Source: Geobacteraceae bacterium (GTDB lineage: Bacteria > Desulfobacterota > Desulfuromonadia > Geobacterales > Geobacteraceae). From it: a DNA stretch of 64,000 nt. How positions within the stretch are numbered: position 1 is the first letter of the stretch; each line of letters starts with the position of its first letter. This document shows, one piece after another, positions 6,081 through 63,634 of the stretch. The notes beneath the pieces were generated by a model. It had not been told where the DNA came from. It was given only the letters and a program-made list of their open reading frames with translations, and made no database searches. The stretch covers positions 1-64,000 of the forward strand of contig JAMXLF010000013.1 in NCBI GenBank assembly GCA_024281055.1. Reading direction: 5' to 3'. The position numbers and the translations under genes are program-made.

Positions 6081-6087
6081 CTTCTTT

Positions 6088-7248: not shown

Positions 7249-7263
7249 TGAAGGTGAAGAGGT

Positions 7264-11004: not shown

Positions 11005-11005
11005 G

Positions 11006-11043
11006 GGCACGACAACAATGATGGTTTGTCTTGTTGTGCCTTT
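11006..11043 (+). terminator. hairpin, possible weak terminator or attenuator
   Basis: GGCACGACAA (11006-11015) can pair with TTGTTGTGCC (11031-11040) with one G-U pair, and is followed by only three T. It lies directly after the six-cysteine gene, where partial termination or mRNA end protection would raise that gene's expression over the next one. Confidence 0.4.
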
Positions 11044-11137
11044 ATGAGGAGACAGTGATTCCAGGTTGGTTCAACTTCTTTGTAACACTCTGAGATTCGG
11101 ATCAACTTCATTTTATAGTCAGGAAGTGATTGAGCGC

Positions 11138-12298: not shown

Positions 12299-12364
12299 AA
12301 ATCAGGGAACATGCTCTTCAAATCACGTTCAATCGCATAGCACTACGGAGATTAATAACGGATC

Positions 12365-13201: not shown

Positions 13202-13236
13202 CTTTCTCTTCCTCATCTCCCGTCGGGTTCTTATAG

Positions 13237-34874: not shown

Positions 34875-35657
34875 ATGATCACGAGTTTCCTGGAGATCTT
34901 CAGATATAAGGAACTGATAAAGAACCTCGTAGGCCGGGACCTCAAAGTCCGATACAAGAACTCGGTCCTGGGTTTTGCCTGGACATGGCTCGATCCTCTC
35001 ATGACCATGTTCATCTTCATCATTGTCTTCGACTTCATTCTCGCCATCAAGACCAAGAACTTTCCGGTTTTTCTCCTCACTGGGCTGATTCCCTGGACTT
35101 TGTTCAACAACTCCGTCATCGGCTCGGTGAATTCAATCACTGGAAATGAAGGTCTGATAAAGCGCGTCTACTACCCAAGAGAAATCTTTCCGCTTACACT
35201 GGTACTCGCGAATACGATCAATATGTTGTTGAGCCTTCTGGTTTTGATCCCCGTCATCCTTGCCTTCCGTATACCCTTGACCACAAAGATTTTTCTCCTC
35301 CCTATCCCTGCCATTTTCCTCTTCTTCTTCACATTCGGACTCGGCCTCGTGTTTTCCTGTCTCAACGTTTTTCTCAGGGACATGGAGTATATCGGCCCGT
35401 TTGCCATCCGGCTTTGGTTTTATCTCACTCCGATTTTTTACGCGGTGGAAGGACGTGTCCCGCAAAGGTTCCTGGACATCTACATGACCCTGAATCCTCT
35501 GGCGGTGATTCTCACTTTTTTTAGGGCTACTTTAATGGGAGAACCTATTCCGGCGTTGCGGCACATTGTTGTTGCGTTCAGCATCTGCATACTGGTCCAG
35601 TTGGCCGGATATACCTTTTTTAAGAAAAACGAAGATAAGATGGTTAAGAGGATATGA
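34875..35657 (+). CDS. wzm: ABC-2 polysaccharide exporter permease (Wzm-like)
   Basis: A 260-residue permease with six membrane segments. The N-terminal family stretch FRYKELIKNLVGRDLKVRYKNS leads into GFAWTWLDPL, and IPWTLFNN.. and LRDMEYI occur later. This is the membrane half of ATP-driven O-antigen/polysaccharide exporters. It overlaps the ATPase gene by four bases (ATGA). The start codon has only a weak GGAT upstream but matches the usual family start. Confidence 0.93.
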   Translation: MITSFLEIFRYKELIKNLVGRDLKVRYKNSVLGFAWTWLDPLMTMFIFIIVFDFILAIKTKNFPVFLLTGLIPWTLFNNSVIGSVNSITGNEGLIKRVYYPREIFPLTLVLANTINMLLSLLVLIPVILAFRIPLTTKIFLLPIPAIFLFFFTFGLGLVFSCLNVFLRDMEYIGPFAIRLWFYLTPIFYAVEGRVPQRFLDIYMTLNPLAVILTFFRATLMGEPIPALRHIVVAFSICILVQLAGYTFFKKNEDKMVKRI

Positions 35658-36430
35658 CGGGTATGTTGGCACTGGAAGTCCGGGAGATGGGAATCAAATT
35701 TCATCTCCACCACGAAGTGGAACAAACCTTGACGGAAACGGTTATCGACCTGTTGAGTTGGCGTGCCCGGAAGAAAAAGACAAAAACCGCTGTCACAAAC
35801 GAAGAATTCTGGCCCGTCAGGAACATTTCCTTTTCCGTACGCCCAGGCGAATCCGTAGGGGTCATCGGCAAGAACGGCGCGGGTAAGAGCACCCTGCTCC
35901 AGGTCCTGACCGGCATTTACAAGCCCGACGAGGGGACGGTCGTACGGCACGGCAATATCGGCTTGCTGCAGTTGGGGACCGGTTTTCATCCCGAGCTGAC
36001 CGGCCGGGACAACATCTACCTGAACGGCGCGATCCTTGGCCTCTCCCGCAAGGAGATCGACAGCGTCTACCGCGCCATCATTGATTTTTCGGAGCTACAC
36101 GATTTCATCGATACGCCGCTGCGCAACTACTCGTCGGGTATGGTTTCCCGGCTGGGTTTTTCCATCGCAATAAACATCCGGCCCGATATCCTCCTCATCG
36201 ACGAAGTCCTGTCAGTAGGAGACGAAGGTTTTCAACGAAAGTGCAGTGAGAAAATTGAAGAACTGCGGGGAGCGGGGAGAACGATCGTCTTTGTCTCCCA
36301 CTCCATGGACCAGGTCGTACAACTCTGTGAAAGAGCGATCTGTCTTGACCACGGGAGAATTTTGTTCGACGGGAGCAGCACCGAAGCGAGCAAATACTAC
36401 CTCGATCTAATCGAGAGGGAAAGCGTCTGA
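35654..36430 (+). CDS. wzt: ABC polysaccharide exporter ATPase (Wzt-like, no C-terminal carbohydrate domain)
   Basis: A 258-residue ATPase with Walker A GKNGAGKST (residues 72-80), signature YSSGM.SRLGFS and Walker B LLIDEVLSVGDE (D183/E184). The ~50-residue lead before Walker A with HHEVE and RKKKT is typical of Wzt/TagH/KpsT-type exporters. It stops soon after the ATPase core, so it lacks the beta-sandwich carbohydrate-binding domain that full-length Wzt proteins of the E. coli O9a type use to read a terminal methyl cap. It works with the Wzm-like protein encoded immediately upstream. Confidence 0.93.
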   Translation: MTGMLALEVREMGIKFHLHHEVEQTLTETVIDLLSWRARKKKTKTAVTNEEFWPVRNISFSVRPGESVGVIGKNGAGKSTLLQVLTGIYKPDEGTVVRHGNIGLLQLGTGFHPELTGRDNIYLNGAILGLSRKEIDSVYRAIIDFSELHDFIDTPLRNYSSGMVSRLGFSIAINIRPDILLIDEVLSVGDEGFQRKCSEKIEELRGAGRTIVFVSHSMDQVVQLCERAICLDHGRILFDGSSTEASKYYLDLIERESV

Positions 36431-36543: not shown

Positions 36544-39500
36544 ATGAACGCTGATAGAATAAACGAATTGTATGCAGGGCAGATATTTAGTTTGGAGACC
36601 CAGAAACTCTGCCGTGAGCGCGTTCACTGGATGTGCCGCCAGGTCCGCGGCGACAAGGTCCTCGATATAGGTTGCAGCCAGGGGATCGTATCCCTTCTTC
36701 TCGGGCGGGAAGGTTTCGACTGCACGGGCATCGATTACGAAAAGAACTCGATCGATTTTGCCCGCACAGAACTGGAAAAAGAAGAAGAGACCGTCCGGAA
36801 GAGGGTCAGGTTCGAGCTGGTGGACGCCACCACGCTTCCCTTCGAGGCGGAAACCTTCGACACGGTCATGCTCGGGGAGATCCTCGAGCACCTGACAAAT
36901 CCCGGGAGGGTTCTGAAGGAAGCGCGGCGGGTGCTGAAGAAAGAAGGAACAGCTGTCATCACGGTCCCGTTCGGCCTGAATAACGCCCCCGATCACAAGA
37001 TGACGTACTATCCCGCCTCCTTCCTGGAGCTTGTGCGGCCGTACTTTGAACCGGTGAAGATTGACACCATCGAGGCGAATATCCTTTTCGTCGGTCGCAA
37101 GCCAGCATCCGATGATCCTGCTTCGATAAGTCCCGAACTGGCGTTTCGGGATTTATTCCATCTGCAGAGGGACATGGAGAGGCGCTGCCTCCTTAAGGAG
37201 CAGATGCTGCTCGAAAGGTCGGTGGAATTCTACGAAAAGTCAAAGAAGCTGAACGAAGCGGTCGAGGCCAACAAGAAGGCCACCGAGGAGGTAAGACAGC
37301 TTCTGAACCTGAAGACCCGGGAATTGGAAGAGGTTCTGTCGAAAGATGAAAAAGAGATTGCGGCGGTCCGGGCGCGGGAGTCCGCCGCCGTCGAGAAATG
37401 GGAGCAGGAGAAGGCGGGGTTCCGGAAGGAGCTGGAGGAGCGGCTGGGTGAAGAACAAAAGCGCCACCAGGAGGAACTTTCAGCCCGTGACCGGGAAGTG
37501 GCATCAATCATCGAAGCGAAGGATGTCTTGCTTCAGCAGGCAGAGTCCGGGCGGCTGCGGGAGATCGAGGATCTTCGGTATGCTCTCGCAGCCAAACGCG
37601 AAACCCGAGAAGAGTTGGAGCGGCGACTGGCCGCAATAGTAGAGGAGCTGACTTCCCATCAGGGGAAATCAGCCGAGCTGGAAAAACTGAAAGAAGAGCG
37701 TGAATCGGCTCTTTCCCAAAGAGAGAGCGAAATTATCCGGCTCCGGGGAGCCCTGGAGAGCGCCAACAACGCTGTAACGCTGCACCAGGAGATCCTTGCC
37801 GGGCAGGAGAAGCGAGCCGCAGAGCTCCAGTCATCGGTTGCTTCTCTACAACTGCTGCTGGCTGAGAGCGAGGGGCAGAATTCGGAAATTACTAGCAGAC
37901 TAACCAAACTGTCTGAGATGTTCGACGAGCAGGGGGCATTACTGTCTGCTAGGGAAAAAGATCTCGAATCTCTCCGTTTGAATAACGCCTTGGATCTGAG
38001 AAACAAAGAGAGGTACTTCAGGATGGCCATGACCGGAAAAGAGAAGGAGCACGAGAAGGTCCTGCTGAAGAAGATCAAGGACTTCGAAGTGACACTAAAC
38101 GCAATTGAGAAACGTTTCCAGGACGATCTGAAGCGCAAGGATGCCGCACTGAACGACCTCTCCTCCTCTTACGCCAAGCAGTTGGAAGAGATGCAGATCT
38201 CTCATAAACACGCTGTAGTTGAGCTCAAGGAAGAATGGGAGGTCCGCCTCCTTGAGCAAGGGATCGAGCACCGGCAGGAAGTCGCCCGGAAGAGCGCCGA
38301 GGTTACCGAATTTGCCGAAAGTCACGCACGCGAAATCGCTGAGATCAGGGAGGAATGGGAGGTCCGCCTCAACCAGCAAGGGATCGAGCACCGGCAGGAG
38401 ATCGCCCGGAAGAGCGCGGAGATTACCGAACTTACCGAAAGGCACACGCGTGAACTTGCCGAAGGGGAGGCGGCTTTCAACGAGAAGTTCCTAAAGCTGG
38501 AAAACGAATGGCAAACCCGGTTCGCAAAGAAGAATGAGGAGTTGAAGACGAAGCTGGAGGAAATGCGGCGCGAGAAGGAATGTGCCCTTGTTGACCAGGA
38601 AGAGTTGTTCCGAAGGGCCTATAGCTGGCGCCTCGGCTCAGTCTTAACCGGCGGTGTGGTCCTGGCTGCCGACATGATCAAACAGCCCCACCGTGCCAGC
38701 CACCACTTCAGGAAATACATCAGGAACGTGATCCCTGCTCCCGCGCAGCCCGCGGGTGAGCCTCCCCGCAGAGAACTCCCGCTTAAACCTTCGGAGGCGC
38801 CCGGACCGGCTGCAGCCCCAGAATCTCTCGCCGTCAGGCCTCTTGACCTTCCTGCCATCCGAAAAGACAGGGTCACCTTGGGGTGTATCCTCGACGAGTT
38901 CACCGCCGAGAATTTCCGGCCCGAATGCCGGATGGTGACTTTCCGTCCCGACAACTGGAAACAGGTCCTGGAGGCGAATCCGCCGAATGCCATCTTCGTC
39001 GAGTCTGCGTGGAGAGGCAATGACGGTGCGTGGCTCTACCGCATCGCCAAGTATCCCGCGAACATGGGGGATGAGCTCCAGCACTTGCTGGAGTGGGCAA
39101 AGGCGCAGGGGATACCTTCCTTCTTCTGGAACAAGGAAGACCCCGTCCACTTTGACCGGTTCATTCCGAAGGCGAAGAACTACGACTACATCTTCACCTC
39201 CGACGCCGACTGCATTCCCCGCTACCGGGAAGCCCTGGGGCACGACCGGGTGTTCTCCCTTCCTTTTGCGGCCCAGCCGCGGATACAGAACCCGGTCCTC
39301 GAAGAAAACCGGCAGAATCTCGCCTGTTTCGCCGGCACCTATTACGGCGACACCATGTTCCCGGAGCGGCAGAGGGACATGGAATACCTCCTTCGCCCCG
39401 CCCTCGATTTCGGCCTCCACATCTACGACCGGCAGTACGGGATGGTTGGTCCCGAGGCAGACAAGTACCGCTTCCCCGACATCTACCAGCCGGCCATCCA

Positions 39501-40461
39501 GGGGCGCCTCGATTTCACGGAGATGGTGAAGGCATACAAGAACTACCGGGTTTTCCTTAACGTCAATTCGGTGAAGGATTCCCCGACCATGTTCTCCCGC
39601 CGCGTCTTCGAGCTCCTTGCCAGCGGGACCCCCGTGATCAGCACCTACTCGAAAGGAATCCAGGAGATGTTCGGCAGCGACCTCGTTCTCCTCACCGAGT
39701 CGGAGGCGGACACGCGCACGCACCTGGAGAAGCTCTTCAACGATGAGGACTACTGGGCCCGACTCTCGGTGCGCGGAATGCGCCACGTCATGGAAGGCCA
39801 TACCTATGCCCAGCGGATGAGCTACGTCCTCACCTGTATGGGGATGAATCACACCGCTGATGATGACGTCTATTTCACCGCGCTTGCCCGCATCGACAGC
39901 CAGCGGGACCTAGACAACCTGCTGGGATCGTTGGGCAGCCAGAACTATCGCAAGTTCGAAGTGAAGCTCCTTTGCAGCGATAAGGTGAAGAAGGGGCAGA
40001 TCCAGAAGTTTGTCGAGGCGATGGTGCCAGTCAGGGTCGCAACGATTCCCCATGGAAACGAGAACGCCCTGGAACAGGCGATCTCCCATGCCACGACCGA
40101 TTTCGTCTGCGTCTTCGATCCCGCAGACCATTATGGCGCCAATTACCTGAAGGACTACGCCATCGCCCTCCGCTACGCCAATGCGCTCTATATCGGCAAG
40201 GAGACGCATTTCACCGAAGAATCGAACATCGTCGAGCTGCGTAATCCCGGCAACGAGTTCAGGTACTCCTTCGAAGTCCCGGTTGCGACCCTGGCAATCA
40301 AGCGGAACATCATCGACCTCAAGTACCTGCACAAATTGCTGACCAACCGGACGTTCCGGAACAAGGACCGGAAAATCCTTTCCCTCGACCGGTTCAACTA
40401 TCTGCACAACACGAACCGCGAGATACCGGCCGATTCGTACGCCAAAACGGTTGATCTGTAG
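36544..40461 (+). CDS. methyltransferase / long coiled coil / glycosyltransferase fusion
   Basis: A 1305-residue protein. Residues ~1-190 are a class I SAM methyltransferase (VLDIGCSQG at 39-47, then ILEHL). Residues ~205-690 are almost entirely charged coiled coil, including a 40-residue unit present twice (563-602 and 603-642). YSWRLGSVLTGGVVLAADM (~693-711) may touch the membrane, and a Pro-rich linker follows (~725-765). Residues ~775-1105 resemble CgeB-type glycosyltransferases (FWNKEDPVHF, SRRVFELLASGTPVIST). The last ~190 residues look like a reduced GT2 domain (ARIDSQRDLDNLL). Beside Wzm/Wzt the design recalls WbdD, whose methyltransferase plus coiled coil caps O-antigen and measures chain length. 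That role is an inference. Confidence 0.9.
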   Translation: MNADRINELYAGQIFSLETQKLCRERVHWMCRQVRGDKVLDIGCSQGIVSLLLGREGFDCTGIDYEKNSIDFARTELEKEEETVRKRVRFELVDATTLPFEAETFDTVMLGEILEHLTNPGRVLKEARRVLKKEGTAVITVPFGLNNAPDHKMTYYPASFLELVRPYFEPVKIDTIEANILFVGRKPASDDPASISPELAFRDLFHLQRDMERRCLLKEQMLLERSVEFYEKSKKLNEAVEANKKATEEVRQLLNLKTRELEEVLSKDEKEIAAVRARESAAVEKWEQEKAGFRKELEERLGEEQKRHQEELSARDREVASIIEAKDVLLQQAESGRLREIEDLRYALAAKRETREELERRLAAIVEELTSHQGKSAELEKLKEERESALSQRESEIIRLRGALESANNAVTLHQEILAGQEKRAAELQSSVASLQLLLAESEGQNSEITSRLTKLSEMFDEQGALLSAREKDLESLRLNNALDLRNKERYFRMAMTGKEKEHEKVLLKKIKDFEVTLNAIEKRFQDDLKRKDAALNDLSSSYAKQLEEMQISHKHAVVELKEEWEVRLLEQGIEHRQEVARKSAEVTEFAESHAREIAEIREEWEVRLNQQGIEHRQEIARKSAEITELTERHTRELAEGEAAFNEKFLKLENEWQTRFAKKNEELKTKLEEMRREKECALVDQEELFRRAYSWRLGSVLTGGVVLAADMIKQPHRASHHFRKYIRNVIPAPAQPAGEPPRRELPLKPSEAPGPAAAPESLAVRPLDLPAIRKDRVTLGCILDEFTAENFRPECRMVTFRPDNWKQVLEANPPNAIFVESAWRGNDGAWLYRIAKYPANMGDELQHLLEWAKAQGIPSFFWNKEDPVHFDRFIPKAKNYDYIFTSDADCIPRYREALGHDRVFSLPFAAQPRIQNPVLEENRQNLACFAGTYYGDTMFPERQRDMEYLLRPALDFGLHIYDRQYGMVGPEADKYRFPDIYQPAIQGRLDFTEMVKAYKNYRVFLNVNSVKDSPTMFSRRVFELLASGTPVISTYSKGIQEMFGSDLVLLTESEADTRTHLEKLFNDEDYWARLSVRGMRHVMEGHTYAQRMSYVLTCMGMNHTADDDVYFTALARIDSQRDLDNLLGSLGSQNYRKFEVKLLCSDKVKKGQIQKFVEAMVPVRVATIPHGNENALEQAISHATTDFVCVFDPADHYGANYLKDYAIALRYANALYIGKETHFTEESNIVELRNPGNEFRYSFEVPVATLAIKRNIIDLKYLHKLLTNRTFRNKDRKILSLDRFNYLHNTNREIPADSYAKTVDL
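38230..38469 (+). repeat. 120-bp direct duplication inside the coiled coil
   Basis: Bases 38230-38349 and 38350-38469 are consecutive copies with a 120-bp period. By my own count they encode 40-residue units with 29 of 40 residues identical, both beginning EEWEVRL and containing QGIEHRQE.ARKSAE.TE. Forty residues equals three hendecads plus one heptad, so the coiled-coil register is kept. Long stretches of identical codons point to a fairly recent duplication. Confidence 0.85.
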
Positions 40462-42807: not shown

Positions 42808-43776
42808 GTGAAGAAGCGCCCGGTCGTTATCACCATCGATGTCGAAGCGGTACCCCGCTTCGAGCTCTGCAACCACGTCGAGTACCTCATCTGGGGACGG
42901 TTCGGCAAAGAGATCGTCGGCATCACCCGGATGATGGACATCGCCGACGAACATGGCTGCAAGCTTACCTTCTTCATCGATTACTGTGAGAAGTTCCTCT
43001 ATCCATCGGCGTTCGAGAACGTGAGCTGCCGCATCGTCGAGCGTGGTCATGACCTGCAGCTCCATGCCCACATGGATCTCCTCCCCCGGGAGTTCTGGAA
43101 AAAGCACAGCCTGGAAAAATACCAGATCGGCCTGAGCGAGCTACCCCAGGACCGCGCGGAGATACTGTTCGATTTCCTCATCGATTGCGCCGTCGAGATG
43201 GGGGGCGTTACGCCGGTCGCCTTCCGGGGGGGGAATTTCCGCTTCAACCACGAGATCCTGAAGGTGATGAAGGGGAAGGGGATCGACCTGAGCTTCAACT
43301 ACAATATCAATTCACTGCACCAGCCGAACAACGCCACGAATTTCCCGATGTTCAAATGGAGCAATGACGTTCTTGAACTGCCGCTGGCAATCACGGAGTC
43401 TGGCGGCAGGATGCAGCCGTTCGAGTTCAACGATTTTTACAACTACGGGCTCCTGACGTCGATCAGACCCGACCGGCACCGCGCTGTCTACAGGTTCATG
43501 GAGAAATATTTTCGACAGTTCGAAAATGCGGTGATGGTGATGCTCATGCACTCCTGGTCGTTTACCGACGTCAACCCGCAGACCGGCTACCGCACGTTCC
43601 GGGACCTGAAGCTCGTCAATGATTTCGAATCGTTTCTGGCAAACCTGCCGGAACAGTTTGAGATCATCACCGCGTCCGATTTGCTCAACCGTTACAGGGA
43701 AGGGAGCTTGAACGTCGGAATCACCAGGGATGTCGAACTCATGGACCGCGAGAAGTACGGCGCCAGGGAGCTCTGA
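42808..43776 (+). CDS. polysaccharide deacetylase-like (NodB-fold) protein
   Basis: A 322-residue cytoplasmic-type protein with no signal peptide. TIDVEA (residues ~8-13) resembles the metal/base motif of NodB-fold deacetylases, LQLHAHMD gives an H-x-H in place of the usual HxxxH, FRGGNFR resembles motif 3, and MLMHSWSF resembles motif 5. GTG 42808 follows GGGGGAG by four bases. It is a full-length paralogue of the C-terminal half of the next gene's product. Its substrate could be an N-acetyl sugar of the glycan; activity is not assured because the motifs are variant. Confidence 0.85.
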   Translation: MKKRPVVITIDVEAVPRFELCNHVEYLIWGRFGKEIVGITRMMDIADEHGCKLTFFIDYCEKFLYPSAFENVSCRIVERGHDLQLHAHMDLLPREFWKKHSLEKYQIGLSELPQDRAEILFDFLIDCAVEMGGVTPVAFRGGNFRFNHEILKVMKGKGIDLSFNYNINSLHQPNNATNFPMFKWSNDVLELPLAITESGGRMQPFEFNDFYNYGLLTSIRPDRHRAVYRFMEKYFRQFENAVMVMLMHSWSFTDVNPQTGYRTFRDLKLVNDFESFLANLPEQFEIITASDLLNRYREGSLNVGITRDVELMDREKYGAREL

Positions 43777-43816
43777 TCCTTTCGACCGTGCCGGCAGGCA
43801 ATCTATAGAGGATTTT

Positions 43817-45757
43817 ATGGAATCTGATTTCAAGGCAGCGTGGGCTGCACATTTCGAGGCCGAACGGCAGAAATCGCCTCTGACCGAAGAGCAGGCGGCC
43901 GAATACGAAAAATACGCCCTTGCCAACAGGGAACGAGCCTCGGAATCGCTTGAAAACATCCTGAGATATCTCCACCTCGACCTGCGCGGTAGGCGCGTTC
44001 TGGATGTGGGGAGCGCCTACGGTGGATTTTCGATCGTTGCCGCACAAAAGGGTGCGGAAGCCTACGGGGTCGAGATCCTCGACTACCTCCACCGCCTGGG
44101 AGAGGCGAATGCGCTGAATGAACCAGGCAACATCAAGCTCATCAACGCAGACATCCTGGATAGGGGCATTTCAGCGGAACTGGGAGCGGAGCCGTTCGAT
44201 CTGATCATGCTGCACGACGTTTTTGAGCATGTATACGACTCCTCGGCTCTTTTCAGGAGAATCGGCGATCTCAGCGATGTCGGAACGACAGTCAATTTTG
44301 CGATCCCCAACGGCGATTGCTGGCAAGCCATCGAACGCGAGGCTCACCGGTTCATGTTCGGGCTTACCCTGCTGGAGCCCGGGGCATGGTCTGAATTGAC
44401 CGGTTCATTCAACATCTACTACCGTCCGCTGCACTACTACCAGCTATTCTTCCAGGCGATCGGCTTTTCCCATCTCTACCTCATGATCGACAGGCAGCTG
44501 GTTCAGACCGCCGTCGAGAGGGTTCAACTGAAATTCCGGGAACTGGAGCAAAAGGTCACTGCGGGCCCGTTTGCCTCCGATCACCTCAATTCCCTGGCAC
44601 GCCACCGCTTTGCCCTTCTTGAGCACCAGCTGGCAGAGGATATCAAAGAAAAGAACCCCCTCTATATACACCTGATGTACGATCATTACGTTTGGCAGGG
44701 ATTTGCCGCGAAAAACATCGTGCAGCCCCTGGAACATGCCGAGGATATCGTCCGACTTACCTACGGGACCCCAGTTTCAGTAGAGACTGAGCCGTCGTAT
44801 ACTAAGCCCGAGAAAAAGAGAGTAGTTATTACGATTGACGTCGAGGCATCACCCTATGCGCAGTCAGAGGACCACGTAGACCGGCTTATCTGGGGAAAAT
44901 TCGGTAACGAGGAAGTGGGCATCCGCCGGATGATGGAAGTCGCCGACCGCTACGGGCACAAACTCACGTTCTTTGTTGATTATTGCGAGGTCTTCCGCTA
45001 CCCAGGCCGGTTTGAAGAAATTTCCCGGGAGATTACGGACAGAGGCCACGACCTTCAGCTTCATGCCCATATGGACCTGCTCCCGGAGGAATTCTGGGAA
45101 AAGCACAACCTGAAGAAATACCATATCAGCTTGAGTGATGTGGATAGACAGCGTGCCGGCATCTTGCTCGATTTCCTGCAGGAAACCGCCCAGAAGATGG
45201 GAGGCGGCAACAAGCCCGTCGCCTTCAGGGGGGGCAGTTTCAGGTACAATAACGTATTGCTGCGGCAGATGAAAGAGCGCGGCATCGACCTCAGTTTCAA
45301 CTATAATGTTCTGTCGCAGCACCAGACCAATAACAGTGAAAACCTCCCGCTTTTCAAATGGAACAATGGCGTGTTCGAGCTGCCGATGGCTAACGTCTAT
45401 ATGAATAACTGGCTCAGGGATCTCGATTTTAACGATCTGAACAACTTTCAATTCACTGATTTCGTTTACGCCTTTATTGACAAATATTACACTATTTACC
45501 CCTCCAACTCTGTTGCCGTCATGATCATGCATTCATGGTCTTTCTGTTACACTGAGGAGAATACGCGGTTCAAAATATTCAGGGACAATAAGCTTGTTGA
45601 CAATTTTGACAGATTTCTTGCAAATCTGCCTCAAGACATCGAAATAGTAACTGCGACTGATGTGCACAACCTGATAACAGCAGGGGAACTGCAAACAGAC
45701 ATTGTTCGCGATGTGGACCTTGTTGATAAGTATAAGTTTAGATCCAGGATTCTTTAG
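43817..45757 (+). CDS. SAM methyltransferase fused to a NodB-like deacetylase domain
   Basis: A 646-residue protein. Residues ~30-310 are a class I SAM methyltransferase (VLDVGSAYGG from residue 61, then DLIMLHDVFEHV). From residue ~333 to the end it repeats the preceding gene's product almost collinearly, with TIDVEA, LQLHAHMD, FRGGSFR and MIMHSWSF all conserved. AGAGGA lies four bases before ATG 43817; the open frame further upstream overlaps the previous gene and is not used. The fusion implies methylation and deacetylation of the same glycan. The 3' end is more AT-rich than the 5' end. Confidence 0.9.
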   Translation: MESDFKAAWAAHFEAERQKSPLTEEQAAEYEKYALANRERASESLENILRYLHLDLRGRRVLDVGSAYGGFSIVAAQKGAEAYGVEILDYLHRLGEANALNEPGNIKLINADILDRGISAELGAEPFDLIMLHDVFEHVYDSSALFRRIGDLSDVGTTVNFAIPNGDCWQAIEREAHRFMFGLTLLEPGAWSELTGSFNIYYRPLHYYQLFFQAIGFSHLYLMIDRQLVQTAVERVQLKFRELEQKVTAGPFASDHLNSLARHRFALLEHQLAEDIKEKNPLYIHLMYDHYVWQGFAAKNIVQPLEHAEDIVRLTYGTPVSVETEPSYTKPEKKRVVITIDVEASPYAQSEDHVDRLIWGKFGNEEVGIRRMMEVADRYGHKLTFFVDYCEVFRYPGRFEEISREITDRGHDLQLHAHMDLLPEEFWEKHNLKKYHISLSDVDRQRAGILLDFLQETAQKMGGGNKPVAFRGGSFRYNNVLLRQMKERGIDLSFNYNVLSQHQTNNSENLPLFKWNNGVFELPMANVYMNNWLRDLDFNDLNNFQFTDFVYAFIDKYYTIYPSNSVAVMIMHSWSFCYTEENTRFKIFRDNKLVDNFDRFLANLPQDIEIVTATDVHNLITAGELQTDIVRDVDLVDKYKFRSRIL

Positions 45758-45777: not shown

Positions 45778-46020
45778 ATGGCGCTCGATGTGATGGCGGA
45801 ACTTGCAAAGTTGCTGCGAGAGGTTTTTGACGATGAGGATATCGAAGTCGATCGTGAGACCGTGGCAAGCGACATCCCCGGATGGGATTCGCTGTCCCAC
45901 ACCGTCGTCATGATGACGATAGAGAACCACTTCGGCATCCGGTTCCCCGGGAAAAGCGTCTTCAGCAATGTGGGAGACCTGGCGGACAACATAGAGGAGC
46001 TGACCGGCAACAAATGCTAA
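45778..46020 (+). CDS. acyl carrier protein
   Basis: An 80-residue acidic protein with the phosphopantetheine attachment motif GWDSLSH (Ser38) and the usual four-helix length. A strong GGAGG precedes the ATG. It overlaps the start of the triple hydrolase gene by seven bases (ATG 46014 inside its last codons), so the two proteins are made together. Stand-alone ACPs in glycan loci usually carry an acyl group for transfer to a sugar or amino-sugar. No KAS, condensation or acyltransferase domain is visible nearby. Confidence 0.92.
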   Translation: MALDVMAELAKLLREVFDDEDIEVDRETVASDIPGWDSLSHTVVMMTIENHFGIRFPGKSVFSNVGDLADNIEELTGNKC

Positions 46021-48662
46021 AGCATCTGGCTTCAAAAAACTTTTCCGACCCGAGAGAGATCACCCTTGACCAGATAGAGGGTCGGACATTTCTGGTGGAC
46101 TCAGGAGGCTATACCTTCCCGTGTCGCTACAACTCGTTTCCGGGAAGCCGCTTCCTGTTCGTCATGCTTCACGACTCTGTCGACCGGCGAAACCATCCTC
46201 TTCCTGTCCTCCCCCGATGGAACTGGGGGAAAATTCTTCGCGCCAATATCCTGTCGATTGACGACCCCACGTTGTACCTCGACGAAGACCTCAGTACCGC
46301 GTGGTACATCGGCACAAAAGAAAGGGACGTTATTCCCGGACTGGCGCGGATTTGCCAGACGGTTGCAACACGGCTCGGGCTGATCTTTTCCCGGATCGTC
46401 TTCTATGGCAGCGGCTCCGGGGGGTTTGCCGCCATTGCCGCAGCAATGCATTGTTCTGCTTCCTGCGTCGCCATTAATCCTCACACGGACCTTCATAACA
46501 TTGAAACGGATATAAAGTCTCCTTTTTCGACCATGTTCGATCCTGCCTGTTCTCCCGAGGAGAACCGCACCTCTGCCTGGGCTCGATGGAACATGACGGG
46601 GGCCGTGGGGCTGTCAAAACGCTATGGGCGTTTTCCGTGCATCGTGGTGGTCCAGGATGTGCACGACAGCTCTACATACTCCCGTCATTATCTCCCGTTC
46701 TGCGAAGCGTTAAAGGTGCCGCATACGGGGGGAATCGGGTTTCACGGCCTTATCAAGACAATTCCGGTAGACTCGGAGACTCCGCAGGGGGCAGATTCCC
46801 TTGCCATCGTATGGCGTATCCTTTCCGAGGGGATGCCATTCATCGAAAAATTCCATTATGCCGATGTAAGCCAGCTTGATCCGGATGCGCTTGATGGCAA
46901 GCCGTTCGCGGTTCAGAGCGAAGGTCTCACGTTTCCCTGCCGCTACAACTCGCATCCGGGTTCTAAAACCCTCTTCGTGGCATTTCACGCCGCAGTGGAT
47001 CGGGAAAAGAAAACTTTGCCCCTCTACGCGCGGTGGAACTGGGGAAAAATTCTAAACGGCAATATCCTATGTATCGACGATCCGACTCTCTATCTGAATG
47101 ACCGGCTCCGTATCGCCTGGTACATAGGCACAAGAGAAAAGGACGTTATCCAGGGCGTGGTGCGGATTGCAGAGACCTTTGCAGAACGGATGGGGCTGAC
47201 ACCTTCGCAAATCATATTCTATGGTGACTCAGCAGGTGGGTTTGCTGCGATTGCCGCTGCCGCAAAAGCTTCCGCGACCTGTGTCGCGATCAACCCCCAG
47301 ACGCAAATTGCGCTTTACGAAAAGAATGCTCTGGCCGCCTTCGCCAAAGTATTCGATCCGGCTTCCTCCCCGGAACAAAGCAGCACGGCGTTCCCAACAC
47401 GCTGGAGCGCTATCGAGGCAGTGCGGGCTGCACGAAGCGCCGGACGAACTCCGAGGGTGTTGATTATACAGAATATGACGAATGATGCGTTCACCGTCAA
47501 AAACCATTATCTTCCCTTCTGCAATGCATTCGATGTGCCGAGTGACGGGGGGGTAGGTTGTCAAGAGTCTATTATGTCGATGACATATGACGACGAAGGC
47601 GGGCATGACGCGGCTGACACTCCGGAGGTGGTGAGGGAGATCACCTCCAAAGGTCTGTCCTTCCTGACAGGAAAGGTCATCGAAAACAACAATGCCGCGA
47701 CAGCTCGATGCGGGGATGCCAGCCTGAAAAATGCGGAGGGAGAGGCATCTGTCGCTGCCCAAAAGGCGGCTACCGAAAGGGCTGAAGAAGAGAAGGCTGC
47801 TGCTGATAAGGGCGCCATGTACTATGCCAACGCCAGCGAAGTCGCGTTGTCCGACGTTCAAGGCAAAGTCTTCACCGTTAACGCCAACGGGATCGATTAC
47901 CCCGCCCGTTTTGCCTCGAACCCCGGCAGCTCGCTCCTCTATGTGGCATTGCATGGTGCCGTTGATCGCACCCAAAGATTGCCGGTCTTTGCACGTTGGA
48001 ACTGGGCAAAGATCCTTGGCGGACATGTCCTTGCCATCTGCGACCCTACACTTTTTTTCGATGACGAACTCACCGTCGGATGGTATGTCGGTGACAAGGA
48101 ACGCAACGTCATCAAAGGAGTTGCGGAAATATCCAGTGCTATCGCGTCAAAGCTGGGGCTGCGTCCCCACCAGGTCGTTTATTACGGCAGTTCCGGCGGA
48201 GGTTTCGCCGCGATGATGGCTGCCGCGATCTCTAATGGCTCAGGAGTTGCCATTAATCCGCAGACAGACCTCGCGAACCATCTACCGTTCTACCGCGACC
48301 AGTTTGCGAAGATGTTCGACTCCGCCGCTTCTCTCGACGAGAGCCGCGCAGCCTTCCCATCCCGGTGGAGTTGCGCCGAGGCGATGATATCGGCCAGCGC
48401 AGCGGGGCGCTGCCCGAAAGTCGTGATTATCCAGAACCTCATCGACACCTACACCCACAGGGAACACTACTTGCCCTTTTGCTCAATGTTGGGAGTTCCG
48501 CTGGAAGGAGGCCGCGGGTACGGTGATATGGTGATGTCGATTACTTACAGCCACGAAGACGGCCACGGTGCTGCAGATACCCCTGATGTGGTTAGAACAA
48601 TTCTTTCCGACGGGCTGTCTTTTTTGATGGCGAATAGGAGTTACCAGGAACAAACGGTTTGA
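46014..48662 (+). CDS. triple-domain alpha/beta-hydrolase-like protein
   Basis: An 882-residue protein made of three homologous units starting near residues 23, 295 and 617. Each has GK.F.V...G..(F/Y)P.R(Y/F), (R)WNW.KIL..(N/H)(I/V)L.I.DPTL, a nucleophile-elbow region YG..(A/S/G)GGFAA and AINP(Q/H)T. Domains 2 and 3 have a Ser in the elbow (S406, S727) and a His in GGHDAAD or GHGAAD (H531, H851). Domain 1 has Gly134 in place of the Ser and no matching His, so it is probably inactive. Domains 2 and 3 are separated by an Ala/Glu-rich helical linker (~555-605). No signal peptide. The start overlaps the ACP gene. A thioesterase or acyltransferase acting on acyl-ACP is the simplest reading, but this is inference. 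Confidence 0.88.
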   Translation: MLKHLASKNFSDPREITLDQIEGRTFLVDSGGYTFPCRYNSFPGSRFLFVMLHDSVDRRNHPLPVLPRWNWGKILRANILSIDDPTLYLDEDLSTAWYIGTKERDVIPGLARICQTVATRLGLIFSRIVFYGSGSGGFAAIAAAMHCSASCVAINPHTDLHNIETDIKSPFSTMFDPACSPEENRTSAWARWNMTGAVGLSKRYGRFPCIVVVQDVHDSSTYSRHYLPFCEALKVPHTGGIGFHGLIKTIPVDSETPQGADSLAIVWRILSEGMPFIEKFHYADVSQLDPDALDGKPFAVQSEGLTFPCRYNSHPGSKTLFVAFHAAVDREKKTLPLYARWNWGKILNGNILCIDDPTLYLNDRLRIAWYIGTREKDVIQGVVRIAETFAERMGLTPSQIIFYGDSAGGFAAIAAAAKASATCVAINPQTQIALYEKNALAAFAKVFDPASSPEQSSTAFPTRWSAIEAVRAARSAGRTPRVLIIQNMTNDAFTVKNHYLPFCNAFDVPSDGGVGCQESIMSMTYDDEGGHDAADTPEVVREITSKGLSFLTGKVIENNNAATARCGDASLKNAEGEASVAAQKAATERAEEEKAAADKGAMYYANASEVALSDVQGKVFTVNANGIDYPARFASNPGSSLLYVALHGAVDRTQRLPVFARWNWAKILGGHVLAICDPTLFFDDELTVGWYVGDKERNVIKGVAEISSAIASKLGLRPHQVVYYGSSGGGFAAMMAAAISNGSGVAINPQTDLANHLPFYRDQFAKMFDSAASLDESRAAFPSRWSCAEAMISASAAGRCPKVVIIQNLIDTYTHREHYLPFCSMLGVPLEGGRGYGDMVMSITYSHEDGHGAADTPDVVRTILSDGLSFLMANRSYQEQTV

Positions 48663-48723
48663 ACATGAGAGTTTCTTATATTATCGTGACGAAAGATCCC
48701 CGCTTTGAAATGGAGGTGTGATG

Positions 48724-50727
48724 ATGGAGCCTGTAATAAACGCTCCGAGAGAAGTTGAGGCCGATGTAGTTCGGTCGGGACCGTCGGTTCTTTGCTCTGC
48801 ATATGAAAAGATCGAATTGGTGTCCAGAGACTACATCAACATGTCAGTGTTGTTTTTCTGTTCACTGCTCGTCCACAGCTTCTTTATCATAAGAGGTCTT
48901 GGTGAAGCTGACGCTGGAAGGTTGTTGCAGTGTGCGGTTTTGTGGCACGTGACCGGCGACGCAGCAGCCGCGTATTCGCGTGTTAGCCCCCTCTACGTAA
49001 ACTTCATGAAGCTATTACTCGATTGGGATGTTTCAATTGCGTCAATCCCGACATATCTGAACTGGTTTAATGTTTTCATGAGCAGCATGGCGATCTTCCC
49101 GGTATACTGCTTCTGGAAGATGATATTCAATCGGAACGTTGCGCTCTGGGGAACAATTTTCCTTTTGTTTTCTCCCTCTTTCTGGCTGGCATCCATCTAT
49201 GGGATGCCGCATCTTCCCGCCTTTGTTTTTCTTTCTTTAGCGCTGCTGTTTTTTCTTCTTGCCCTCGAAGATGACGGCAAGGTCACTATCAGCTTGTACC
49301 TCTTGTCTCTGGTTTCGATGATGGTCGCCTGTACCTTCAAGGCCGACATCTTCCTCTGCGGGTCGGCTTTTGGAGCAGTAGTGCTGCTCAAAAAGAAGCT
49401 GTCTGTAAAAACCGCTGTATTGGCGGTAATACCAGCCATTTTGGGAGTCGCCTCTCCGATCGTTTATTATAAATTCATTGCCCTGCCTGATGTCTCGACC
49501 TCTGCATTCGCTAATCAGTGGTCTGACCAGTACCTTTTCACCATCAAAGCCTTCCTTAACCGCAAAAATCTCTTGGTTCTCCCTCATGTCAACGGCCCTG
49601 TCATCTTTTACACTGCTTTGACCGCGGCGCTCATAGTATCAGTAATTTGCAAGAAGCAGAGATGGTTGATCCTTGCCGTCCTTATTTGGATACTTCCAAC
49701 AGAAATATGGTGGGGGTTCAGGGATGGCAACTCTTCTCGCCACATGATGATGGCATTTTCAATCTTCCCCTACCTGTGTGGTTTGTTGCTTTTCGCTATC
49801 ATTCCTCAAACGAAATACAAATTTCTTCCCCACTTAGCATGTTTTTTCTTTCTAATTCTTAACTATTATTCTACTGAAGCAAGCGGGGACGGCGTAATTT
49901 ATCCGAGCACACAAATTTTTTCCTCCAAACGCCTGCTGCAAAAAGTAATCTTGGACCAGCACAAAAGAGCAAAGGATTTCGTTGCGCTAAAAGCAGAAAA
50001 AAAAGCCTTCATAGGAGGAGCAACAAATCCGTATACACTGTATGAGGTGTTCAACAATGCCACGGAGATACATTTCCCAAACAGAGCAAACCTCTTCGAA
50101 GTCAAAAAAGAATCGGGTATCATGGAGACCGTTCTTTGGAGGGAAATCCCGTCAAACAATGCGGCTGAAGAAGCGGCTAGGCTGAAAAAGGAAGGGTGGG
50201 CGGTTTGGTCTCAGGAATTCGACCTTGCTCAGCTGGATGAAAACTCCATGGACGAGGACCTGCGTTCCCCTTCGGTTAATCTCGTGAAAATTTCCAACCC
50301 CGGATTCGAAACCTGGGAGGGCAGCTTACCATCGGGTTATACAGTCAGGGATGGGGGCATCGTCCGTAAGACTACAGCGAACCCTTATGAAGGAAATGCT
50401 GCTTTGGAATTGTCTACGGGCCAGAAGCTGAGCTACCTGTATCAGAACATCGCCCTTGATCCCTCATTTGGTGGGAAAAAAGTGATCGTTTCGACGATGG
50501 CTAAAGCTGACAGGGATCGAGCCGTTGTCTGGGTATACACCGTCATCAATGGTGTCCAGAGCAAAACCCTCTACGGAGCTCCGCACCCCGGAGATGGGAA
50601 GTGGCATCGCATAGGTGTTGCGCTTCAATTACCGGAAAAAACTCCAGAAGGCCGCCTTTGCTTCGTGCTGGAAGGTGAGCCCTCCAACGCCATCGAGTTT
50701 GACGACGTGAAGATGTATACCAAATAA
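48724..50727 (+). CDS. GT-C-like membrane protein with C-terminal beta-sandwich domain
   Basis: A 667-residue protein. Residues ~40-400 hold about ten membrane segments, with GLGEADAGRLLQC in the first loop as a possible GT-C acidic site. Residues ~520-667 form a domain ending in HPGDGKWHRIGV and FDDVKMYTK, which is homologous to the mature lipoprotein at 54084-54758 and looks like a carbohydrate-binding-module type jelly roll. GGAGG (48712-48716) fits ATG 48724 best; ATG 48721 and GTG 48718 are alternatives. The membrane part is noticeably more AT-rich than its neighbours. Confidence 0.83.
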   Translation: MEPVINAPREVEADVVRSGPSVLCSAYEKIELVSRDYINMSVLFFCSLLVHSFFIIRGLGEADAGRLLQCAVLWHVTGDAAAAYSRVSPLYVNFMKLLLDWDVSIASIPTYLNWFNVFMSSMAIFPVYCFWKMIFNRNVALWGTIFLLFSPSFWLASIYGMPHLPAFVFLSLALLFFLLALEDDGKVTISLYLLSLVSMMVACTFKADIFLCGSAFGAVVLLKKKLSVKTAVLAVIPAILGVASPIVYYKFIALPDVSTSAFANQWSDQYLFTIKAFLNRKNLLVLPHVNGPVIFYTALTAALIVSVICKKQRWLILAVLIWILPTEIWWGFRDGNSSRHMMMAFSIFPYLCGLLLFAIIPQTKYKFLPHLACFFFLILNYYSTEASGDGVIYPSTQIFSSKRLLQKVILDQHKRAKDFVALKAEKKAFIGGATNPYTLYEVFNNATEIHFPNRANLFEVKKESGIMETVLWREIPSNNAAEEAARLKKEGWAVWSQEFDLAQLDENSMDEDLRSPSVNLVKISNPGFETWEGSLPSGYTVRDGGIVRKTTANPYEGNAALELSTGQKLSYLYQNIALDPSFGGKKVIVSTMAKADRDRAVVWVYTVINGVQSKTLYGAPHPGDGKWHRIGVALQLPEKTPEGRLCFVLEGEPSNAIEFDDVKMYTK

Positions 50728-54016: not shown

Positions 54017-54045
54017 TTGATTTTAAGAAGTGGCGCTTATAAAAT
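54017..54045 (+). promoter_or_regulatory. sigma-70-type promoter for the lipoprotein gene
   Basis: TTGATT (54017-54022) and TAAAAT (54040-54045) are separated by exactly 17 bases in a non-coding gap of 233 bases. A CGGAGGAA ribosome-binding site follows at 54068, with ATG at 54084. The predicted leader is about 30 bases. Confidence 0.6.
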
Positions 54046-54083
54046 ATGCTGCCGCAAAGAAAATAACCGGAGGAACGAAAGTA

Positions 54084-54758: not shown

Positions 54759-54774
54759 ATCTGCATGGGCTGCA

Positions 54775-54798
54775 CCGGCCCTCTCCGAGGAGGGCCGG
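54775..54798 (+). terminator. G/C-rich hairpin between lipoprotein and heparinase-like genes
   Basis: CCGGCCCTC (54775-54783) pairs perfectly with GAGGGCCGG (54790-54798) around a 6-nt loop, 17 bases after the lipoprotein stop. There is no T run, so it could be a weak terminator, an mRNA end stabiliser or an attenuator before the gene at 54936. Confidence 0.45.
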
Positions 54799-54935
54799 CG
54801 TCTCCCCAGCCTGCGTGCGGTCCCCCCACTGCCAAGGGCCGCACTTGGCCCCTACGCCCTGCCACTTCGGTTTGTGCCGCCCGGGGCCAACCGATTCGGA
54901 CCACCATCCGAGCTGCCGCCGCAGCAGGAGGTACA

Positions 54936-56918
54936 GTGGCCACCGACCTGAAGCCCACCCTTCTTCTTGCCATACTGCTGTTTACCGGCCTTGGCAGTGC
55001 AGCCACCTCTTGGGGCTACGCGCCCCCGACCTCGTTCATAGCCTACGCCGACCGGATGGACGCCAAGTATTTTCCCGTCTTTTTGCGCTCCTTCGAAATC
55101 CTGAAAAAGGGCGATGTTGACAGATTGCACGAGTATTTCCACGAGGATATTTTCCGCGCCAACACCTCGAGGCAGCGGGTTTCCTTTGAAAGTAACGGCT
55201 CGGCACCGTCGGACATCATCTACCATGACACCTACGCACTTTTTCCGCAGGGCTACCCGGTCCGTTTCCCCGTCCAATGGCGCGCCAACCCCAAGAACGA
55301 CCTCTCCTGGTCTTTCGACTTCCAGAGCCTGGTCTGGCTTGACGACTACCTATCCAAGGGAGAGAGGGGCGACTACGCCTCGGCCGCCAAGGCCTTCCGG
55401 GTCATGTCCGACTGGATCCGGGCCAACCCGGCCTGGCCCACCGACAATCCCCTCATGTACGACGAGCACTGCTGTGTCCTGAGGCTGGAAGCATTCTACC
55501 GGGCGCTGCGGATTTACCAGAAATCCCCCTATCGCGACGACGAATTCCTGAACCAGCTGCTGTGTGGCATCCTCAATCACCTCTCGCTGCTAGCCACGGA
55601 GGAGCTGTTCCACTGGCACAACCGGATGATCATCGTCGACTCAAGACTGATCAAAATACTGGACGGATTCTATGAGTTAAAAGGAAGGGACGAACTGCTG
55701 AAACTGGCAGTGGAGCGCTTCAGTGAGGAGCTGCGGGCGGAGTATTCCCCGGAAGGAGTCCACAATGAACACTCGAGCTGCTACCACATCTACGTCAACT
55801 CCGCGCTGGTTGAATTGGTCGACTACCTCAAAAAGAAGGGAGATGCCCCCGCTGACCTCGTGGAGCTCCAAGAACGCTCGGCCGACTTTTATGCATACAT
55901 ACTGAAACCCGACGGCTCCTGGCCGGACTTCGGCGACTGCTCGGATGGGGGGAAGTACGTGATGACGGGGACGCTGGGTGAGGATTATTTCCGCCGACAC
56001 CCGGAGGTAAGGTACGCCCTGACGTCGGGGCGCGAGGGGAGAAGGCCGCTGCATCCGATCCGAGTCTTCCCGCAATCGGGCTACGCGGTGTTCAGGGACG
56101 TCTGGCCGGCAAAGACCTACGCCGCGGTGAAGTCGGAGTTCCACTCCGACGCACACTACCACGAGGACGAGACTTCTTTCGTGCTAAGCGCCTTTGGGCA
56201 CGATCTCATCGTCGACCCCGGCATCTACAGCTACAACCGCGACCCTTTCGGCAGCTACATGAGGAGTTCGGCGGCGCACAACATTCTTGCAGTGGACGAC
56301 CGGGATTTCGAGAGGGACTGGGGGATGGTTGGCCTGGCGGGGATCACCCGCTTTCATGTAGCGGCGGACGAGACATCGGGGATGGTAGAACTCACCCACC
56401 CCCACTACGAGAAGATCGAGGTCGGGGTGTTCAGGCAGTTCGGCCAGCTCGCCCCCGGCAGCTATGTTGTGAGAGACCTGCACGAGTCCAAAACGACCCG
56501 GGTGTACTCCCAGTTGTTCCACCTCGCGCCGGGAGCCTCGGTGCGAAAGACGGGACAGAATACCTTCGCGGTGAGTTGGAAGGGATACCCCTACGTGCTT
56601 TGGTTCAGGAGCGTCTTCGATTCCTTTGACGTCATAGAGGGAGCCATCGCTCCGATTCAGGGATGGTACTTCCCATCATACGGGGTCAAAACTGCGGCCC
56701 CGGTGCTGAAGCTCGACCGGGTCGGCGACAGCGGCAGTTTCGAGACCCTCATCGCCTTACTTCCGGAAGGCACCGCTCCCGAATGGGAGAAACTCGCCCG
56801 GCAGTCCTCAGAGCTGTCGGAGTCGCTCGCGGCTCACCCCAGACGTTCCCTCCAGCGAGAAGTGTCACCTCCCGAACTGACCCCGCCCAGAAAGAGAAAC
56901 AAAACGTCAGGGCGCTGA
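54936..56918 (+). CDS. heparinase II/III-like exported polysaccharide lyase
   Basis: A 660-residue protein starting at GTG 54936 (AGGAGG four bases before); the in-frame ATG at 54765 would overlap the hairpin. A signal peptide (LLLAILLFTGLGSAATSWGYA) is followed by an alpha-helical toroid domain (~60-370, with WPTDNPLMYDEHCCVLR). The C-terminal heparinase II/III beta domain contains HSDAHYHEDETSFVLSAFG..LIVDPG and SSAAHN. Family members cleave uronate-containing polysaccharides by elimination. In an assembly locus it may trim or release the glycan. The wecC gene at 60572, which makes a uronic acid precursor, fits such a substrate. Confidence 0.9.
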   Translation: MATDLKPTLLLAILLFTGLGSAATSWGYAPPTSFIAYADRMDAKYFPVFLRSFEILKKGDVDRLHEYFHEDIFRANTSRQRVSFESNGSAPSDIIYHDTYALFPQGYPVRFPVQWRANPKNDLSWSFDFQSLVWLDDYLSKGERGDYASAAKAFRVMSDWIRANPAWPTDNPLMYDEHCCVLRLEAFYRALRIYQKSPYRDDEFLNQLLCGILNHLSLLATEELFHWHNRMIIVDSRLIKILDGFYELKGRDELLKLAVERFSEELRAEYSPEGVHNEHSSCYHIYVNSALVELVDYLKKKGDAPADLVELQERSADFYAYILKPDGSWPDFGDCSDGGKYVMTGTLGEDYFRRHPEVRYALTSGREGRRPLHPIRVFPQSGYAVFRDVWPAKTYAAVKSEFHSDAHYHEDETSFVLSAFGHDLIVDPGIYSYNRDPFGSYMRSSAAHNILAVDDRDFERDWGMVGLAGITRFHVAADETSGMVELTHPHYEKIEVGVFRQFGQLAPGSYVVRDLHESKTTRVYSQLFHLAPGASVRKTGQNTFAVSWKGYPYVLWFRSVFDSFDVIEGAIAPIQGWYFPSYGVKTAAPVLKLDRVGDSGSFETLIALLPEGTAPEWEKLARQSSELSESLAAHPRRSLQREVSPPELTPPRKRNKTSGR

Positions 56919-62008: not shown

Positions 62009-63634
62009 ATGCCGGACCTGATTGTAAATAACCAGTACAACATCGGCCACATCTGTACCCGTCAGCAGTGCGAGGCAGGGCTCGGCGAAAAAGTGGCGAT
62101 GCGCTGGGTCTCGGCGCACCTGGAGCGGAAGGATTACACCTATGCCGACCTGGAAGCCGAGAGTAACAGGTTCGCCAATGCTCTGCAATCCCTCGACCTC
62201 GAAGCGGGGGACATTCTCTTCACCTTTCTCCCCAAGATGCCGGAGCAATTCTTCGCCTTCCTCGGGGCTCTGAAGCTGCGGCTGATAACCGGCACGCTCT
62301 TTTCCAATTTCGGCGAAGAAGCCCTGCTCGACCGTCTGGGAGATGCCGGTGCAAAATGCGTCATCACCAAGAAGAGCTTCCTGAAGAAGATCGGCCGGAT
62401 CCGCTCCCAGCTTCCCGCTCTGCGCCACATCATCGTGGTGGATGGTGAGGATGACCCGGCAAACGGCGTTGTCGGCTATCAGGGACTCATGGCGGCCGCG
62501 TCGCCCGACTTCGCAACCACGCCGACTCCCGCCGATACCCCCTCCGTGCTCCATTACACCTCCGGCTCTACCGGAAAACCGAAAGGGGTGCTACATCGCC
62601 ATCACAGCATACTGTCCCAACACCGGACAGCCCGGGAGATACTCCATCTCGACAGTGACGATATTTACTGGTGCACGGCGGACCAAGGGTGGGTCACCGG
62701 CACGTCCTACGGGATCATCGGTCCCTGGAGTCTCGGCGTGACACAGCTCCACTTCGGCGGCACTTACAACGCGGCCGCTTGGTTCGACCTCTTGGAGCAG
62801 GAACGGATCACCATCTGGTATTCCGCTCCCACGGCGCTCCGGATGCTGATGCGGGAAGATCCTGCCATCTTCGCGGGGCGCGACCTGGGAAGCCTCCGGC
62901 ACATCTTCAGCGTCGGCGAGCCGCTCAATCCCGAGGTGATCCACTGGGCGCGCCGCACCCTCGGCAGGGACATTTACGACACCTGGTTCCAGACCGAAAC
63001 CGGCGCCATTATGATCACCAACCGTCCCGGCCTTGAAGTCAGGCCAGGTTCCATGGGAAAGCCGGTTGCCGGCATCGAGGCCGCCATCATCGCCGACGAC
63101 GGCATGCCCATGGCCGACGGGGAACAGGGAAACCTCTGCGTCAGACCCGGCTGGCCCTCTATGTTCACCACCTACCTGAATAACGACGAGGTCTACCGGC
63201 AAAAGTTCAGGCACGGCTACTACTTTTCCGGCGACACGGCCTACCGCGACCCTGACGGCTATTTCTGGTTCATGGGCCGCAGCGACGACGTGATCAACAC
63301 CGCCGGCCACCTGGTGAGCCCCTTCGAGGTGGAGAGCGCGCTTCTGGAGTTGCCGGAGGTGGCCGAATCAGGGGTCATCGGCGCGCCGGATGAACTTCTC
63401 TTCGAGAAGGTGGTGGCATTTGTCCACCTGCATGCGCAGTATGAGTGGTCACGTGAACTGGAGTTGAAACTGCGCCTGCACGTGGCGAACAAGGCCTCCT
63501 CGATCGCCACGCCGCAGGAGATTATTATTGTCGATTCAATACCCAAGAACAAGAGCGGCAAGATCATGCGCCGGGTACTGAAAGCCCGCTACCTGGGGAC
63601 AGATGCCGGAGACGTATCGACCCTGGACATATAG
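62009..63634 (+). CDS. AMP-forming acyl-CoA synthetase (AcsA-like)
   Basis: A 541-residue ANL-superfamily enzyme with the ATP loop TSGSTGKPKG (near 184-193), TETGAIM, the adenylate motif YFSGDTAYRDPDGYFWFMGR, and the C-terminal catalytic lysine in NKSGKIMRR (Lys518). The KPGSMGKP-like stretch (RPGSMGKPVAG) and overall length resemble Bacillus AcsA-type acetyl/short-acyl-CoA synthetases. It is placed between wecC and galE, which suggests acyl-CoA for sugar acylation. Alternatively, it is a general acetate-activating enzyme that happens to be here. A GGAGG precedes the ATG. Confidence 0.9.
   Translation: MPDLIVNNQYNIGHICTRQQCEAGLGEKVAMRWVSAHLERKDYTYADLEAESNRFANALQSLDLEAGDILFTFLPKMPEQFFAFLGALKLRLITGTLFSNFGEEALLDRLGDAGAKCVITKKSFLKKIGRIRSQLPALRHIIVVDGEDDPANGVVGYQGLMAAASPDFATTPTPADTPSVLHYTSGSTGKPKGVLHRHHSILSQHRTAREILHLDSDDIYWCTADQGWVTGTSYGIIGPWSLGVTQLHFGGTYNAAAWFDLLEQERITIWYSAPTALRMLMREDPAIFAGRDLGSLRHIFSVGEPLNPEVIHWARRTLGRDIYDTWFQTETGAIMITNRPGLEVRPGSMGKPVAGIEAAIIADDGMPMADGEQGNLCVRPGWPSMFTTYLNNDEVYRQKFRHGYYFSGDTAYRDPDGYFWFMGRSDDVINTAGHLVSPFEVESALLELPEVAESGVIGAPDELLFEKVVAFVHLHAQYEWSRELELKLRLHVANKASSIATPQEIIIVDSIPKNKSGKIMRRVLKARYLGTDAGDVSTLDI

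Follow-up and report, generated by a model that had tools for sequence, protein, structure and literature searches.

The nearest structural counterpart of the protein considered here is CsaC (SacC), the capsule O-acetyltransferase of Neisseria meningitidis serogroup A (PDB 6YUO and 6YUS), which uses acetyl-CoA as its acyl donor and extends its catalytic triad in an unusual manner with a glutamine, Q138, whose replacement by alanine cuts transfer activity by 97% (PMC7501274). The authors of that structure observed that an extra glutamine of this type recurs in uncharacterised bacterial proteins (PMC7501274), and asked if a triad extended by Gln could be the hallmark of a broader enzyme group. 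A second glycan O-acetyltransferase, Asp2/Gap2 (PDB 6OYC), belongs to the accessory Sec system and O-acetylates GlcNAc on GspB; its role in export is independent of its catalytic site (PMC5578698), which provides a precedent for a non-catalytic duty in a protein of this fold.

The window, that is, the whole stretch of 64,000 nucleotides from a Geobacteraceae bacterium that was analysed, contains a CsaC/Asp2-like, probable glycan acyltransferase that is triplicated, includes one pseudoenzyme unit and is encoded by a gene overlapping that of an ACP, and this is a real, well-defined feature (Table 1). The original prediction had described the seven-base overlap and the three collinear units in one chain, and both are borne out, as are its residue numbers (Ser406, Ser727, His531, His851 and Gly134); the units are about 280 residues each, they are pairwise 42-50% identical in the alignment, and Ser406 and Ser727 both lie in GxSxG motifs. 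A signal peptide or membrane helix is not evident in the sequence of the triple protein. The ACP retains the DSL serine and scores just below the cut-off of PF00550 (20.1 bits, cut-off 20.8).

Table 1. Features of the ACP and triple-unit genes and of the surrounding glycan locus (positions in the window).
Feature	Position	Strand	Remarks
ABC-2 permease and ATPase, polysaccharide-export type	34875..36430	+	Pfam
Methyltransferase/glycosyltransferase	36544..40461	+	homologues in 43/78 loci
NodB-like (weak) polysaccharide deacetylase homologue	42808..43776	+	shares 54% identity with the NodB-like domain encoded by the following gene
Methyltransferase fused to second NodB-like domain	43730..45757	+	Methyltransf_23; sub-threshold Polysacc_deac_1; directly upstream of ACP
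ACP gene	45778..46020	+	80 aa; Ser38 in GWDSLSH is the predicted phosphopantetheine site; ribosome site GGAGGTGAT
Overlap of ACP stop and triple-gene start	46014..46020	+	7 bases, ATGCTAA (sequence)
Triple-unit gene	46014..48662	+	882 residues, three homologous units
Unit 1, alpha/beta-hydrolase pseudo-domain	46014..46856	+	Gly134, His157, Asp218, Gln258; alignment and AlphaFold2, pLDDT 95.4
Unit 2, complete set	46857..47686	+	Ser406, Gln429, Asp491, His531
Ala/Glu-rich linker before unit 3	47694..47819	+	residues 561-602 (translation)
Unit 3, complete set	47820..48659	+	Ser727, Gln750, Asp811, His851; AlphaFold2, pLDDT 95.2; CsaC Z 21.2
Heparinase II/III-like protein	54765..56918	+	homologues in relatives' loci
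AMP-forming acyl ligase, candidate ACP loader	62009..63634	+	acetate-CoA ligase-like

Units 1 and 3 were modelled singly with AlphaFold2; the full-length alignment had stacked the relatives on unit 3. Both models (pLDDT 95) support the alpha/beta-hydrolase fold that had been predicted, and in the structural comparison of these two units all 1000 of 1000 chains stood at a Z score of at least 8. The best solved structure was CsaC for unit 1 (Z 21.1, 3.7 A, 236 residues) as well as for unit 3 (Z 21.2, 3.3 A, 232 residues), and the second was Gap2/Asp2 (Z 19.4 and 19.2, respectively), which Foldseek placed first for unit 1. Esterases followed from Z 18.9 downward, and for unit 3 Gap2 ties with the best of them. 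At the level of sequence, a family profile built from 64 members and compared with all PDB sequences found CsaC first (E about 1e-4; next match 5e-3), and aligned the family's serine with CsaC S114 and the glutamine of its NPQ motif with Q138. The equivalents of Q138 are Gln429 and Gln750 in units 2 and 3, and the residue is gone from unit 1. The position of CsaC His201, the second His of that enzyme and the one that positions its Gln, is occupied by Thr in all three units, so that the protein may be said to work like CsaC but is not filed as a CsaC; this Thr counts against the reading preferred below. A Pfam match (28.8 bits, above the cut-off) was taken as generic similarity of fold, and its reading as a 'peptidase S9' or a lipase was set aside, the gene context giving it no support.

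The first unit

Units 2 and 3 each contain the GxSxG elbow together with the Asp and His of the triad. Unit 1 has Gly134 for the Ser and Gln258 for the His, with Asp218 retained, and the earlier view of it as a pseudo-domain with Gly134 and without the His is supported. All 72 relatives that are readable at the column of the catalytic His have His there, unit 1 being the sole exception; the second genome scan was made with the pattern [FY][YV]GSS[GA]GGF, which selects for the Ser but not for the His, and the presence of a Ser nucleophile in 80 of 80 relatives must accordingly be read with the knowledge that the pattern had preselected it in most of them. The Gln column holds Gln in 76 of 80 relatives and His157 in unit 1.

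Conservation reaches 85% or more in 23 columns of the alignment; unit 1 differs in seven of these, all three catalytic ones among them, as compared with three departures in unit 2 and none in unit 3. The state of unit 1 thus looks like more than general drift (hypergeometric p = 0.02 for the catalytic columns, a post hoc figure since the test was chosen after the data had been seen). The core residues Arg68, Trp71, Asp84 and Trp97 and the GGF turn are still in place. In the tree the three units form a single clade (support 100/100) in which the branch of unit 1 is the longest (0.71, against 0.34 and 0.56), which places the triplication within the window lineage and the loss of the active site of the first copy after it. 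For units 1 and 2, dN is 0.46 and dS 1.6, a dN/dS of about 0.3 that is a rough gauge of selection because dS is near or at saturation; with this reservation, the ratio and the intact reading frame make simple decay of unit 1 improbable. Unit 1 is very probably non-catalytic, and it could perhaps have taken on glycan binding, ACP binding or spacing.

Relatives and the glycan locus

Relatives were drawn from plasmids, from the phylum, and from bacterial and archaeal genomes. A first scan of genome contigs in which the three units were the only queries gave no confirmed relative, and in total about 80 loci were found; they come from methanogens and from both Gram-negative and Gram-positive bacteria, and capsule-type genes often accompany them. 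Most relatives are single units within capsule-type loci that also encode glycosyltransferases, ABC exporters, UDP-sugar dehydrogenases and heparinase-like proteins. Homologues of the large methyltransferase/glycosyltransferase were present in 43 of 78 loci and those of the UDP-glucose-type dehydrogenase in 33 of the 78, the window being included in both counts; homologues of the ABC exporter genes were present in 28-35 of the 78. Heparinase II/III-like homologues occur in the loci of 18 relatives besides the window, and in nine cases they form one protein with the hydrolase unit (L033, L069, L035, L045, L044, L053, L058, L031 and L042), these being from Bacillales and some Shewanella/Psychromonas; the L042 protein carries an additional, weaker CsaC-like unit at its N-terminus.

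CsaC-like units were also observed on contigs of Methanobrevibacter and other archaea (L049, L063, L065, L071, L080 and L084). Those of them included in the tree are nested among bacterial sequences, a placement suggestive of inter-domain transfer. A Desulfovibrio contig (L038, 3-2366) has two neighbouring CsaC-like genes, which lie close to the window clade but stem from a tandem duplication of their own. The triple arrangement itself was absent from 96 relatives, from the sampled genomes of the phylum and from the genome-contig relatives. An origin of the gene from phages or plasmids was considered and rejected, as no match was found among phage or viral contigs and the plasmid relatives are just five in number and distant.

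The locus in the window is of the same general type; in addition to the genes listed in Table 1 it holds further glycosyltransferases and a UDP-glucose-type dehydrogenase. In Desulfovibrio, the gene that starts 6 bp after a single-unit relative codes for a protein with which both NodB-like proteins share about 30% identity. They belong to a family with the motifs TxDxE, HxH, FR[GA]G and HSW that falls below the Pfam thresholds and adjoins CsaC-like units in two unrelated genomes (the window and L026, 8769-9737). Two further observations concern the same stretch: a domain ending in FDDVKxYTK (noted by eye) is shared by the C-terminus of a membrane glycosyltransferase-like protein (48718-50727) and a small lipoprotein-like protein (54030-54758), and a collagen-repeat protein of 905 aa is encoded on the minus strand at 57500-60217, inside the glycan locus.

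Taken together, the locus context and the homology argue for a glycan-modifying role. The original prediction of a glycan acylation module is supported in this respect by the top structural matches, CsaC and Gap2/Asp2, in combination with a surface-glycan locus, although the word 'undescribed' was too strong, as the family fits the proteins with an extra glutamine that had already been noted with the CsaC structure (PMC7501274).

Acyl donor and reaction

The relatives of the window ACP are 33-49% identical to it. A gene order of the ligase-ACP-MBOAT type surrounds three of them, on another contig of the same genome, C35 (47% identity), in another genome of the order (49%) and in a third genome (39%), the identity of the MBOATs being confirmed by the family model for the window's own genome. 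An ACP relative lies near an MBOAT in Sinorhizobium, and one in Mesorhizobium directly follows a ligase in a polysaccharide-export locus. Compared with the window, the members of the cassettes are 47-49% (ACP) and 69-78% (ligase) identical; the window ligase is 78% identical to the ligase adjoining the ACP paralogue on C35, and the genome has just two such close copies. That the ACP is of the ligase-ACP-acyltransferase cassette type and has a cognate-like ligase in its own locus strengthens its link to the triple protein. Three MBOATs were detected in the genome, all on C35, and none on the window contig, C13; the triple protein is therefore the evident candidate for acyl transfer in the window locus. 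The C35 cassette (L107, about 5185-13677) combines its ligase and ACP with the three MBOATs and SGNH-like partners and appears to be a membrane counterpart of the window system. A literature search on ACP-fed polysaccharide acylation found nothing relevant.

We give an even chance to the reading in which the triple protein is a cytoplasmic O-acyltransferase, most likely an O-acetyltransferase, of an ABC-exported surface glycan, with the acyl group probably supplied by the ACP and with unit 1 non-catalytic. In this scheme the ligase would load the ACP with an acyl group, for which a short one, perhaps acetyl, is the natural guess given that the ligase is acetate-CoA ligase-like. The overlap of the genes and the apparent substitution for an MBOAT suggest that the ACP would deliver this group to the triple protein. 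There, if the homologous CsaC is a guide, Ser406 and Ser727 would take it up as an acyl-enzyme in a Ser-His-Asp site with the extra Gln, and the hydroxyl of a sugar would then accept it. Unit 1, having kept the fold and lost Ser, His and Gln, might bind the glycan or the ACP. Modification in the cytoplasm fits with the ABC-exporter type of the locus and with a protein that has no evident signal peptide or membrane helix.

As the donor, ACP and CoA appear to us about equally probable. The alternative, which we regard as unlikely overall, is that the triple protein is a glycan O-acyltransferase acting on acetyl-CoA, the donor of CsaC (PMC7501274), with the ACP serving some other enzyme, such as the MBOATs on C35, and the overlap reflecting operon packing. 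It had been proposed that single-domain homologues be checked for adjacent ACP genes, and this check turned out negative: in approximately 80 loci of hydrolase relatives, neither phmmer nor an HMM built from the ACPs of this genome detected one. The HMM is rough (one row came from the wrong strand) yet recovers the window ACP at 3e-22. Hence the hydrolase family as such does not need an ACP. Moreover, the MBOATs elsewhere in the genome come with their own ligase and ACP, and the window ligase sits 13 kb from the triple gene, outside the gene pair, which counts against an ACP-fed enzyme. The same cassette can be turned the other way, as C35 is already supplied and the window has a second ligase and ACP pair in one locus, the ACP gene of which overlaps the triple gene.

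Another alternative to the preferred O-acyltransferase would be an esterase that removes acyl groups, in editing or trimming, from the glycan or from acyl-ACP. Most alpha/beta-hydrolases of this fold are indeed esterases, many at Z 17-19 and with scores only about 2 below that of CsaC, a fact that counts against our explanation, and the heparinase-like fusions in some relatives hint at the trimming of glycans. However, both top solved structures are acetyltransferases, and units 2 and 3, like 76 of 80 relatives, retain the Gln that extends the CsaC triad; on these grounds transfer would be favoured over hydrolysis, and we consider an esterase quite improbable.

In the synthesis of Nod factors, NodB, NodF and NodA carry out an N-deacetylation followed by re-acylation of the freed amine. 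An analogous N-acyl exchange, in which the NodB-like pair strips N-acetyl groups and the ACP and triple protein re-acylate the amine, would account for the two NodB-like domains directly upstream of the ACP and for the matching pair of hydrolase and NodB-like genes, 6 bp apart, in Desulfovibrio, but it is very improbable, as the NodB-like match lies under the Pfam threshold, the domains found no match among PDB sequences, deacetylases included, CsaC and Asp2 form O-esters, and other relatives lack the NodB-like gene.

Comparison with known systems

The O-acyltransferase preferred here shares with CsaC the alpha/beta-hydrolase fold (over about 235 residues), the Ser-Asp-His triad, the position of the catalytic Gln and a setting in a capsule locus. 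In contrast, CsaC is a single domain with acetyl-CoA as donor and His201, whereas the window protein comprises three units with Thr at that position, a dead first unit and an overlapping ACP gene. With Asp2/Gap2 the common ground is the fold and the Ser-Asp-His triad; unlike the window protein, Asp2 has extra domains, acts on serine-rich glycoproteins and resides in an accessory Sec locus, and the Pfam scan of genes in the window revealed no Sec genes. The Asp2 family models likewise fall short of their cut-offs (PF16929, 11.5 bits against 28; TIGR03712, 10.7 against 210.75). The XcbB/CpsF family of capsule proteins without known activity (NF033892) has weak similarity to all three units and a capsule setting in common with the window, with 57.8 bits over three stretches, below the curated cut-off of 125; in this connection, the NmX candidates CsxB and CsxC showed no transition-transferase activity (PMC11666461).

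This returns us to the ligase-ACP-MBOAT cassettes and their Dlt-like logic. The window ligase and ACP are related to theirs, and one such cassette is present in the same genome, but the cassettes employ an MBOAT, whereas the partner of the window ACP would be a soluble array of alpha/beta-hydrolase units. One may therefore envisage, tentatively and as a rather unlikely full account, a glycan O-acyltransferase that depends on the ACP and whose tandem of two active CsaC-like units plus a pseudoenzyme stands in for the membrane acyltransferase of the cassette, the dead unit docking the ACP or holding the glycan.

With respect to the question raised by the authors of the CsaC structure, the sequences, predicted folds and gene neighbourhoods of the window family speak for a broader group that has the Gln-extended triad. 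The window would add to this group a variant with chained units, a dead one among them, and with a coupled ACP, amounting to a cytoplasmic, ACP-fed decoration of surface glycans.
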